Source of the DNA: an uncultured Mucispirillum sp. | GTDB taxonomy: Bacteria > Chrysiogenota > Deferribacteres > Deferribacterales > Mucispirillaceae | Assembly (NCBI GenBank): GCA_944324495.1 | Contig: CALUWN010000004.1 | Coordinates: forward strand, 86,022-150,021 | Length of the DNA: 64,000 nt | Direction: 5' to 3' | Part shown: in pieces, positions 50,605 to 64,000 of the stretch | How the letters are laid out: each line of letters opens with the position of its first letter | How positions within the stretch are numbered: the first letter of the stretch is position 1 | Translations under genes and position numbers: made by a program | Notes under the pieces: model-generated | The model's input: the letters and a program-made list of their open reading frames with translations, nothing else | Told to the model about the DNA's origin: nothing | The model's database searches: none

Positions 50605-51018
50605 ATGAAAAAAATTATTTTTACTTTGGTAGTATCACTTTTCGCGTTTGCTGCATTTGCACAGGATATGCCTATTCAGCCAAACCAGTTACCAGCTAAT
50701 GCTCAGAGCTTTATCTCTTCAACATTTTCTGGTGCAACAATTGTAGCTGCTCAAAAAGACAGAGATGAATTTGAAGCAGCTCTTAACAATGGAACAAAAA
50801 TTACATTTGCATTAAATGGCGAATGGGACAGTGTTGAGTCATACTCAGTTTTACCTGCTGGCATCTTACCTGCAGCTGTAGAAGCAGCAGCTAATGCACA
50901 AGGCGGCAACATTGTTAAAATTGATAAAGATTTTGGCTACTATGAAGTTAAACTTCAAAATAATGTAGAATTAAAAATTGACCTTAATGGTAAAATTTTA
51001 AAAAGAGAAATTGACTAA
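50605..51018 (+). CDS. Secreted PepSY-like (DUF2874) protein 1
   Basis: 137 residues with a signal peptide ending FAQ near residue 20. Two PepSY-like repeats follow: LPANAQSFISSTFSGATIV with DEFEAALNNGTKITFALNGEWDS, and a second with YYEVKLQNNVELKIDLNGKIL. This fits the PF11396 family, small periplasmic beta-lactamase-inhibitor-like folds of unknown role. Paralogues lie at 51304 and 53950. AAGGAG precedes the start. Confidence 0.8.
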   Translation: MKKIIFTLVVSLFAFAAFAQDMPIQPNQLPANAQSFISSTFSGATIVAAQKDRDEFEAALNNGTKITFALNGEWDSVESYSVLPAGILPAAVEAAANAQGGNIVKIDKDFGYYEVKLQNNVELKIDLNGKILKREID

Positions 51019-51303: not shown

Positions 51304-51726
51304 ATGAAAAAAATTTTAGTTTTTACTTTTGCTTTTATGATGGCTGCAAGCTTTGCATTTGCAGATATGATGGTTGCACCAAATGCACTTCCTGCAAAAA
51401 TAACTCAATTTGTTAATACAAACTTTGCTGGGGCTCAAATTATGTATGCTGAGCAGGATTTTGATAGCTTTGAAGTTAAATTAAATACAGGTGTTGAGCT
51501 TGATTTCTATGCAAATGGTGACTGGAAAGAAATAAAAACTTACCAAAATTTCCCAACACAAGTTTTGCCTGAAGCTGTTGTTCAAGCAGTAAAAAGTGCT
51601 CACCCACAAGCTTTTATAATTAAAGCTGAAAAAACTTGGAATGGCTTTGAAATCAAAACAAGCAATATGATGGAAATATATGTTACACCAAATGGTCAAA
51701 TTATGGGTCAAAAATTTGATGACTAA
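51304..51726 (+). CDS. Secreted PepSY-like (DUF2874) protein 2
   Basis: 140 residues with a signal peptide ending AFA near residue 20. LPAKITQFVNTNFAGAQIM, EQDFDSFEVKLNTGVELDFY and WKEIKTYQNFPTQVLP match the paralogue at 53950 closely and that at 50605 more distantly. It has a separate promoter from gene 1. AAGGAG lies upstream of ATG 51304. Confidence 0.8.
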   Translation: MKKILVFTFAFMMAASFAFADMMVAPNALPAKITQFVNTNFAGAQIMYAEQDFDSFEVKLNTGVELDFYANGDWKEIKTYQNFPTQVLPEAVVQAVKSAHPQAFIIKAEKTWNGFEIKTSNMMEIYVTPNGQIMGQKFDD

Positions 51727-53949: not shown

Positions 53950-54372
53950 ATGAAAAATTTTTTTATTATTTTATCTTTAATGATAGTATCTTTTAGCTAC
54001 TGTTATGCTGATATGGTTGTAAGTTTCGATAAACTACCTAACAATATTAAATCATTTGTTAAAACATATTTCCCCGGTACTGTTGTTATGTTTGCAGAGC
54101 AGGATTACAATGAATATAAAATACGACTAAATAATGGGGTTGAAATAGAATTTGATATTAATGGTGCTTGGAAAGAAGTAAAATCATTTCAAAATTTTCC
54201 AACAGAACTTTTACCAAAGATGATTGTAAACAGTATAATTAGAACATATCCAAACGTAAATATAATTAAAGTGGAAAGAATATGGAACGGATATGAAATA
54301 AAACTCAGCAATATGATGGAGCTTTTTATTGATAAAAACGGCAATATAGTAGCAAGTCAATTTGATGATTAG
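53950..54372 (+). CDS. Secreted PepSY-like (DUF2874) protein 3
   Basis: 140 residues with a signal peptide ending CYA near residue 20. LPNNIKSFVKTYFPGTVVMF, EQDYNEYKIRLNNGVEIEFD and WKEVKSFQNFPTELLP are very near to protein 2, so one arose by duplication of the other. Its upstream DNA lacks the ECF-like boxes; a TATAAT at 53919-53924 is the likely -10 region. AGAGG precedes the start. Confidence 0.8.
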   Translation: MKNFFIILSLMIVSFSYCYADMVVSFDKLPNNIKSFVKTYFPGTVVMFAEQDYNEYKIRLNNGVEIEFDINGAWKEVKSFQNFPTELLPKMIVNSIIRTYPNVNIIKVERIWNGYEIKLSNMMELFIDKNGNIVASQFDD

Positions 54373-62697: not shown

Positions 62698-63675
62698 ATG
62701 GCAGTTTCTTACAAAGAATTAGGTCTTGTAAACACAAGAGAAATGTTTGCAGACGCTATGAAAAACGGTTATGCAGTTCCTGCATACAACTTTAATAACT
62801 TGGAACAAATTCAAGCAATTGTTCAAGCTTGTGCTGAAACAAAATCTCCAGTTATTCTTCAAGTATCAAAAGGTGCTAGAAATTATGCAAACGCAACTAT
62901 CCTTCGCTATCTTGCTATGGGTGCAGTTGAATATGCAAAAGAACTTGGTTGCAGCATACCTATAGCTTTACACTTAGACCATGGCGACAGCTATGAATTA
63001 TGTGTTGACTGTATTGAAAAAGGTTTTTCTTCAGTTATGATAGATGGTTCTCACTTGCCTTATGAAGAAAACGTTGCTTTAACAAAAAAAGTTGTTGATT
63101 ACGCTCACAAATTTGATGTAACAGTTGAAGGTGAACTTGGCGTTTTAGCTGGTATAGAAGATGAAGTTCAAAGCGAACATTCTCACTATACAGACCCAGA
63201 GCAAGTGGAAGATTTCGTTAAACGTACAGGTGTTGATTCATTAGCAATATCTATCGGTACATCACACGGTGCATACAAATTTAAAGTAAAACCGGGTGAA
63301 AGCGTTCCACCACTTCGTTTTGATATTTTAGAAGAATGTGAAAAACGTTTACCAAACTTCCCAATAGTTCTTCATGGTGCATCTTCTGTATTACCAGAAT
63401 ATGTAGAGCTTATTAATAAATACGGTGGTAAAATGGAAAACGCTGTAGGTGTTCCTGAAGACCAATTAAGAAAAGCTGCAAAATCAGCAGTTTGTAAAAT
63501 AAACATAGACTCTGACGGCAGGCTTGCATTCACTGCAAAAGTAAGGGAAACTTTAGCTACTCAACCAGCAGAATTTGACCCAAGAAAATACCTTGGCAAT
63601 GCAAGAAGCGAACTTGTAAAAGCATATAAAGCTAAAAACGAAAACGTTTTAGGCAGTGCAAATAGAGTTAAATAG
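62698..63675 (+). CDS. fba: Class II fructose-1,6-bisphosphate aldolase
   Basis: 325 residues. It cleaves fructose 1,6-bisphosphate in glycolysis or makes it in gluconeogenesis. ALHLDHGDSYELCVDCIEKG holds a catalytic Asp and a zinc-binding His, VEGELGVLAGIEDEV is the second signature, and VLHGASSVL carries a later zinc His. Strong SD (GGGAGG) and a strong terminator suggest high expression. Partner to pfkA at 25332. Confidence 0.95.
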   Translation: MAVSYKELGLVNTREMFADAMKNGYAVPAYNFNNLEQIQAIVQACAETKSPVILQVSKGARNYANATILRYLAMGAVEYAKELGCSIPIALHLDHGDSYELCVDCIEKGFSSVMIDGSHLPYEENVALTKKVVDYAHKFDVTVEGELGVLAGIEDEVQSEHSHYTDPEQVEDFVKRTGVDSLAISIGTSHGAYKFKVKPGESVPPLRFDILEECEKRLPNFPIVLHGASSVLPEYVELINKYGGKMENAVGVPEDQLRKAAKSAVCKINIDSDGRLAFTAKVRETLATQPAEFDPRKYLGNARSELVKAYKAKNENVLGSANRVK

Positions 63676-63701: not shown

Positions 63702-63728
63702 AAGCCCCTTCATATAAGGGGCTTTTTT
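63702..63728 (+). terminator. Intrinsic terminator of fba
   Basis: AAGCCCCTT / AAGGGGCTT, a 9-bp GC-rich stem, loop CATAT, then T residues. Confidence 0.92.
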
Positions 63729-63751
63729 AGTGTCAATTTAAAAAATTACTG

Positions 63752-63760
63752 TGGTATACT
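63752..63760 (+). promoter_or_regulatory. Possible extended -10 box before the CRISPR array
   Basis: TGGTATACT reads as TG-N-TATACT and lies about 30 bp before the first repeat. A -35 box is not clear. Confidence 0.3.
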
Positions 63761-63791: not shown

Positions 63792-64000
63792 ATTTTACTT
63801 GGACCGCAATATTTAATATGTTATAATGTTCGCAAGCGAGACGGAAAAAGATCTCTCGTTCTGTATTGACCACAATATTTAATATGTTATAATTAAGTTT
63901 AGAAATATTATGCCTTATTGGTGGTTCTGTATTGACCACAATATTTAATATGTTATAATTAAGTTTAGAAATATTATGCCTTATTGGTGGTTCTGTATTG
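63792..64000 (+). CRISPR. CRISPR array, first three units visible, type II-C-like
   Basis: Repeats of 36 bp alternate with 30-bp spacers. A degenerate repeat is at 63792-63827, then spacer 1 (63828-63857), repeat 2 (63858-63893), spacer 2 (63894-63923), repeat 3 (63924-63959), spacer 3 (63960-63989), and 11 bases of repeat 4. Full repeats begin GTTCTGTATTGACC and end ATATGTTATAAT. Length and spacing fit type II. The repeat end TGTTATAAT is an extended -10 box, as in type II-C arrays of Neisseria and Campylobacter. Spacers 2 and 3 are identical. No cas gene is in the window. Confidence 0.9.

Follow-up and report, generated by a model that had tools for sequence, protein, structure and literature searches.

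A predicted extended -10 promoter element in each repeat at the probable oldest end of a Mucispirillum type II-C CRISPR array

The window analyzed here, a 64,000-nucleotide stretch of DNA from an uncultured Mucispirillum sp. (G000:C4:86022-150021), runs to the end of contig C4 at window position 64000 and closes with the beginning of a clustered regularly interspaced short palindromic repeats (CRISPR) array. Judged from sequence comparisons, this is very probably the oldest end of a type II-C array in which each repeat bears an extended -10 element (TG-N-TATAAT) predicted to transcribe its spacer. The -10 hexamer was never altered in the 55 oldest repeats counted, while the rest of the repeat often decays. 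The locus is an ordinary type II-C CRISPR-Cas9 system of a Mucispirillum-like bacterium.

Results

Repeats at the end of the window

The last 209 bases of the window comprise three 36-base repeats, three 30-base spacers and the 11-base start of a fourth repeat (Table 1), with a repeat spacing of 66. All three repeats end in TATGTTATAAT, and the statement of a preliminary description of this DNA that the repeats end in TG-N-TATAAT was correct for each of them (3/3). Not all three units are intact, the opening 10 bases of repeat 1 being degenerate. Relative to the genus repeat, GTTCTGTATTGACC[A/G]CAATATTTAATATGTTATAAT, repeat 1 was changed at positions 1, 4, 6, 7, 8 and 10 and carried the G allele at position 15, with positions 16-36 intact. 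A candidate ghost of a still older repeat sits 31 bases 5′ of the first repeat (63725-63760), and a clearer one (23/36, TATAAT intact) was seen in a congener (G042).

Conservation of the predicted -10 element across type II-C loci

From a public-genome scan, the best 80 of 491 Cas9-encoding loci were taken and an array was found in 57/80; addition of Mucispirillum and of G033, a genome of another family in the same order, gave 59 loci with 57 distinct repeats. Over these 57 repeats, likeness to TATAAT was highest at position 31, averaging 4.19 of 6 against 2.77 for the second-best position. T31 and A32 were each kept in 55 of the distinct repeats and T36 in 48. An anti-repeat, the part of the trans-activating CRISPR RNA (tracrRNA) complementary to the repeat, scored above threshold in 35 of the 57 named loci. 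Positions 16-25 were Watson-Crick paired to the tracrRNA in 32-35 of these 35 loci, though several of the bases vary. T31, A32 and T36 were kept in 35, 34 and 31 of the 35 loci and Watson-Crick paired in 18, 21 and 5, respectively, in a count that retains L052, whose pairing is undercounted owing to a gap and a row out of register. The three bases are thus conserved in many loci where they are not so paired, indicating that they are conserved for something besides tracrRNA pairing, and they are key letters of a -10 element. The earlier proposal of a promoter in every repeat is accordingly supported for its predicted -10 element; the proposal overlooked a -35-like TTGACC that also lies in the repeat.

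Retention of the -10 hexamer in oldest repeats

The first repeat of an array has no preceding spacer; its handle half would be useless, and its 3′ end would still have to transcribe spacer 1. The 65 loci given (57 named and 8 from the genus or G033) yielded 55 untruncated main arrays whose first repeat was distinct and scored 26/36 or better. The oldest repeat was changed in 31 of these 55, and the 134 substitutions were distributed 77, 32, 25 and 0 among positions 1-8, 9-14, 15-30 and 31-36 (31-36 versus 15-30, p = 4.8e-4). In a survey with 364 arrays in its figure (PMC12080349), first-repeat changes lie mostly in the first 15 bases and it is suggested that the promoter must be kept; the present count makes that point explicit.

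Several observations weigh against this reading. The 80-locus sample was biased to one branch of Cas9, and related sequences are not independent. The later repeats as they stand (1499 in 74 clusters) showed no shortage of changes in 31-36, their 29 changed cells being distributed 9, 11 and 9 among positions 1-14, 15-30 and 31-36. Two arrays contributed 8 of the 9 cells in 31-36, each through its last repeat, where a promoter would serve no spacer, and given this placement the later-repeat data fit the -10 reading. Two of the 31 altered oldest repeats (L092 and G046), and also an older G042 repeat, had a change in the TG of the extended -10. Five more decayed candidates were left uncounted; L025, L058 and an older G042 unit keep 31-36, and two doubtful units alter it, one in the genome of the window (20/36, one change) and one in the congener G041 (22/36, odd spacing). 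The latter unit, which precedes the G041 array at a 22-base spacing and is changed at 33-36, was taken as chance. Nor does the motif alone prove anything in an AT-rich window, where its frequency is unremarkable: TGNTATAAT was found 19 times against 11.65 expected, and 5/100 shuffles reached 19. The longer pattern TTGAC-N17-19-TATAAT occurred in the window in the two intact repeats only (2 versus 0.35 expected; 6/100 shuffles reached 2). The motif was found at a fixed place in 26 forward array matches of the window's genome and in 8/10 genus genomes, and it is this fixed place within array and genus, together with the conservation across other type II-C loci, that takes it beyond chance.

The decay at the outer side of the oldest repeat could also in part be edge truncation. 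That plain truncation from the outer edge accounts for the whole pattern, with no selection on the -10, is unlikely: in several arrays the changes do form blocks at the 5′ edge, and two changed last repeats decay at their own outer side, yet isolated changes (no neighbor within 2 bases) still avoid 31-36, numbering 20, 9, 16 and 0 in the four intervals, in a weaker test than that on all substitutions (16 in 15-30 versus 0, p = 0.0095). A second alternative is that the repeat 3′ end is kept as the leader-side integration site of Cas1-Cas2 and is not a promoter. T31, A32 and T36 sit exactly at the repeat end facing acquisition, and the 3′ end of the last repeat in type II-C arrays is described as facing the acquisition side (PMC12080349). 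Oldest repeats, however, would not take new spacers, yet all 55 counted keep 31-36; the letters kept correspond to a -10 element; and starts a few bases into the spacer have been mapped in Campylobacter jejuni (PMC3656092). We regard the integration-site explanation as very unlikely.

Continuation of the array and the adjoining cas genes

The last 52 bases of the window are identical to the first 52 of contig C43, which holds 23 further full repeats, and the array thus has at least 26 repeats if C4 and C43 overlap at this 52-base end. How many copies of the doubled spacer there are is uncertain, since the assembly breaks at exactly this place. In the congener G041 a single contig carries, in order, the aldolase gene, the array, two open reading frames (ORFs) of cas2 and cas1 size (assigned by size and place only) and cas9; its aldolase protein, encoded directly 5′ of the array, was 98% identical, and its cas9 82% identical. 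This synteny and the 52-base end overlap support the C4-C43 join.

Table 1. Features of the array and its surroundings in the window and on contig C43.
Feature	Location	Strand	Basis or remark
Class II fructose-bisphosphate aldolase-like gene (presumed), 5′ of array	62698..63675	+	ORF
Intrinsic-terminator-like hairpin with T run, in gap between aldolase gene and array	63702..63728	+	-13.2 kcal/mol
Possible ghost of still older repeat	63725..63760	+	alignment, weak; 20/36, ends TATACT
Repeat 1 (likely oldest)	63792..63827	+	29/36 to genus repeat
-10 TATAAT of repeat 1	63822..63827	+	TG at 63819-63820; expected to transcribe spacer 1
Spacer 1	63828..63857	+	
Repeat 2	63858..63893	+	intact, 36/36; A allele at position 15
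-35-like TTGACC in repeat 2	63866..63871	+	16 bases before TATAAT
-10 TATAAT of repeat 2	63888..63893	+	
Spacer 2	63894..63923	+	
Repeat 3	63924..63959	+	intact, 36/36; A allele
-35-like TTGACC in repeat 3	63932..63937	+	
-10 TATAAT of repeat 3	63954..63959	+	
Second copy of spacer 2	63960..63989	+	identical
First 11 bases of next repeat	63990..64000	+	cut by contig end
Hairpin after last repeat	C43 1538-1567		
cas2	C43 1601-1972	-	TIGR01573
cas1	C43 1993-2892	-	TIGR03639, type II Cas1
cas9, 1039 amino acids, intact frame	C43 2889-6008	-	TIGR01865 over 12-1022, E 3e-189
Predicted tracrRNA promoter TTGACA-N17-TACAAT	C43 6065-6093	array strand, 5′ of cas9	
tracrRNA, ~85 nt	L011 6099-6183	array strand	anti-repeat from 6099, then terminator hairpin

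A type II-C Cas9 system with a tracrRNA anti-repeat had been forecast just beyond the right edge of the window. Indeed, type II cas9, cas1 and cas2 genes adjoin the array on C43, with an anti-repeat complementary to the repeat beside cas9, and the neighboring type I or III cas set named as the contrary outcome was not seen among the five main genes of the 10-kb C43; the genome had a single Cas1 match, and no genome-wide search for type I or III effector genes was made. PADLOC agreed with the family matches for all three cas genes. Cas9 had a RuvC_III match, and its HNH region could be aligned with HNH fragments of known structure from other Cas9 proteins. Its best Protein Data Bank matches, the closest solved relatives, were chains 6kc8, 8ja0 and 6jdq (E about 5e-66), which we take to be Neisseria meningitidis Cas9. 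The first species-named relative among the best 120 of 5973 Cas9 relatives was that of Mucispirillum schaedleri (73% identical). In 50 genomes of the phylum a Cas9 match was found in 11, including 8/10 genus genomes, those in G035 and G038 being short and weak.

On C43 the array lies on the + strand and the cas genes on the - strand, a convergent layout that G041 shares. The operon consists of cas9, cas1 and cas2 only, with no csn2 or cas4 among C43 ORFs of at least 70 amino acids; 5′ of cas9 on its own strand are flavocytochrome c-like and MocR-like genes, and the array follows cas2. The far end of the array has intact repeats and a genus-wide leader and the window end a decayed repeat, suggesting that new spacers enter at the far, cas2-proximal end and that the window probably shows the old end.

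The leader, A[A/G]GTCA..AATAAACCCC..GGGGTTTATT, begins directly after the last repeat (L011 1530-1567) and is conserved at the corresponding position of six other arrays in the genus; its hairpin could end both the array and the cas2 transcripts. At repeat position 15, G was found in the 21 cas2-proximal repeats (L011 174-1529), A was kept in four intact older repeats (window 63872 and 63938 among them), and the decayed first repeat has G, which at this position would pair as G-U with the tracrRNA. The A-to-G change fits a spread by copying of the last repeat.

The tracrRNA and its pairing with the repeat

The anti-repeat begins 6 bases after the -10 of the predicted tracrRNA promoter and, aligned without gaps, matches repeat positions 2 and 4-33 except 11, with mismatches at 1, 3, 11 and beyond 33. 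The tracrRNA was found in seven genus genomes, its first 39 columns invariant. The three bases before the anti-repeat, opposite repeat positions 34-36, vary between most of these genomes. With a predicted start at or adjacent to the first base of the anti-repeat, the tracrRNA would leave positions 34-36 uncovered. The 84-nt tracrRNA folded far better than shuffles (z -5.55). In its terminator helix, both sides had changed in 3 of 8 pairs across the seven genomes and the covariation score was reached by 0/500 shuffles; weighing against the helix, the count of pairs changed on both sides was reached by 40/500 shuffles and 2 cells were unpaired. In a fold of the tracrRNA alone (L011 6099-6182), the anti-repeat was predicted to pair with the tail of the molecule (-25.8 kcal/mol), a structure that would compete with pairing to the CRISPR RNA (crRNA).

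Intact repeats were predicted to pair with the tracrRNA over ~32 bases at -38.6 to -39.0 kcal/mol, and the decayed first repeat at -29.3. Such a duplex would suit RNase III, whose gene is present in the genome. Although this gene, the pairing of about -39 kcal/mol and a TGTGGTATACT stretch directly 5′ of the first repeat would all suit transcription mainly from one promoter outside the array, with RNase III and tracrRNA cutting every repeat, as in type II-A, we consider that arrangement highly improbable, given that TATAAT is kept in 26 repeats of the array, that the hairpin between the aldolase gene and the array is predicted to shield the array from read-through, and that the TGTGGTATACT stretch may itself belong to the end of an older repeat that has decayed.

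The -35-like hexamer

In each of the 23 full C43 repeats, and in both intact repeats of the window, a TTGACC lies 16 bases ahead of TATAAT. The TTGACC/TATAAT pair is shared with G033, though half of the 16 intervening bases differ, and the exact pair also occurs in two Treponema loci. Over the 57 repeats, likeness to TTGACA peaked at position 9 (mean 3.26 of 6), followed by position 2 with 2.74. Of the 31 changed oldest repeats, 18 were altered at positions 9-14, which also lie within the tracrRNA-pairing part of the repeat, as were six of seven accepted decayed genus repeats. A full -35/-10 promoter (TTGACC-N16-TATAAT) as the essential element was therefore not upheld, as the -35-like hexamer decays freely in oldest repeats; the comparison favors a -10-driven promoter with possible help from a -35. 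A more elaborate scheme, which we consider unlikely, would give Mucispirillum and some other lineages a repeat that acts as a full -35/-10 promoter, its -35 hexamer serving also as part of the crRNA handle. A single change in the oldest repeat would then abolish the useless first crRNA and remove the -35 at once, and the oldest memory would be turned down with age from a full promoter to a bare -10.

Spacers and their targets

Four of the 24 distinct C43 spacers are variants of one site (L011 606-635, 870-899, 1266-1295 and 1398-1427) and agree at 26-27/30 bases with the major capsid gene of Peromfec virus RodF8_42, a member of the Microviridae from rodent faeces; on the genome of this virus no shuffled spacer exceeded 23 (20 x 154). 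All four encode LPVGL[S/P]D[T/S]G on the other strand, as in the capsid. This repeated capture of one site makes it likely that microviruses infect the genus. The core shared by the four spacers had no exact match in IMG/VR and, allowing up to 2 mismatches, none outside the array in the 10 genus genomes; no relatives of the Peromfec virus capsid were found in IMG/VR. With one target in two registers, a protospacer adjacent motif was not derivable.

A blastn search of the C43 array against phages returned 6 records at E up to 1, comprising the Peromfec microvirus, four Lactococcus matches on the repeat itself and one unannotated phage. The G041 array returned 12 records (best E 3e-4, 44 bases of a Staphylococcus phage) and the G042 array 100. 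An Rfam scan of C43 gave three matches, all far below gathering scores.

Other genes in the window

Three neighboring genes (50605-51018, 51304-51726 and 53950-54372) encode small exported-looking proteins of 137-140 amino acids that are alike by eye, and they are interleaved with a chemoreceptor-like gene.

Discussion

In the proposed mechanism, every spacer would have a transcription start of its own, a few bases into its sequence, giving a crRNA of ~23-24 spacer bases and the 5′ part of the next repeat whose 5′ end would form without processing. Pairing of read-through transcripts with tracrRNA would extend over ~32 bases, and RNase III would probably trim the 3′ side of these transcripts. 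Through its repeat part the crRNA would pair with the ~85-nt tracrRNA, which is predicted to be expressed from a separate promoter next to cas9, and this crRNA:tracrRNA would direct Cas9 to cut matching DNA. In the first repeat, the half that would form a useless crRNA has been lost, and the half that would transcribe spacer 1 is preserved.

Oldest repeats thus offer a test of the promoter-in-repeat idea that can be made from genomes alone, the -10 hexamer being the stretch never altered in those counted. Compact self-transcribing repeats would also be handy for building guide arrays. Among the papers listed on Mucispirillum with CRISPR-Cas9, Microviridae or phage, no title or opening of an abstract treated these repeats; a Mucispirillum CRISPR system is mentioned in one paper with details in its supplement (PMC5285517). 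The locus adds to the promoter-in-repeat arrays a phylum not named in the literature consulted, though supplements may hold it.

Type II-C systems that bear a -10 element in the repeat, have array and cas genes convergent and show a degenerate first repeat are features already in the literature (PMC4607530, PMC3656092, PMC12080349). As in a survey of 58 type II-C species (PMC4607530) and another of more than 650 systems (PMC12080349), the repeat here has gnTAnaaT at its 3′ end, the array is convergent, and the first repeat, often degenerate, is changed mostly in its first 15 bases; the portions of these surveys available to us do not single out positions 31-36 or report a -35-like hexamer. Neisseria meningitidis type II-C is described as having a promoter in each repeat, and RNase III is reported to be dispensable in Neisseria (PMC5006608); in Riemerella the same paper found no such promoter. 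The Neisseria lactamica repeat ends in TGCTACAAT (PMC4607530, table), differing from the repeat here. There is a close parallel in arrangement with C. jejuni type II-C, in which the promoter -10 lies in the repeat and the start in the spacer, crRNAs beginning at position five of each spacer with a 5′ end set by the promoter and a 3′ end made by RNase III (PMC3656092). The C. jejuni repeat, GTTTTAGTCCCTTTTTAAATTTCTTTATGGTAAAAT (PMC4607530, table), is without a TTGAC hexamer; unlike it, the Mucispirillum repeat combines a perfect TATAAT -10 with TTGACC 16 bases upstream.
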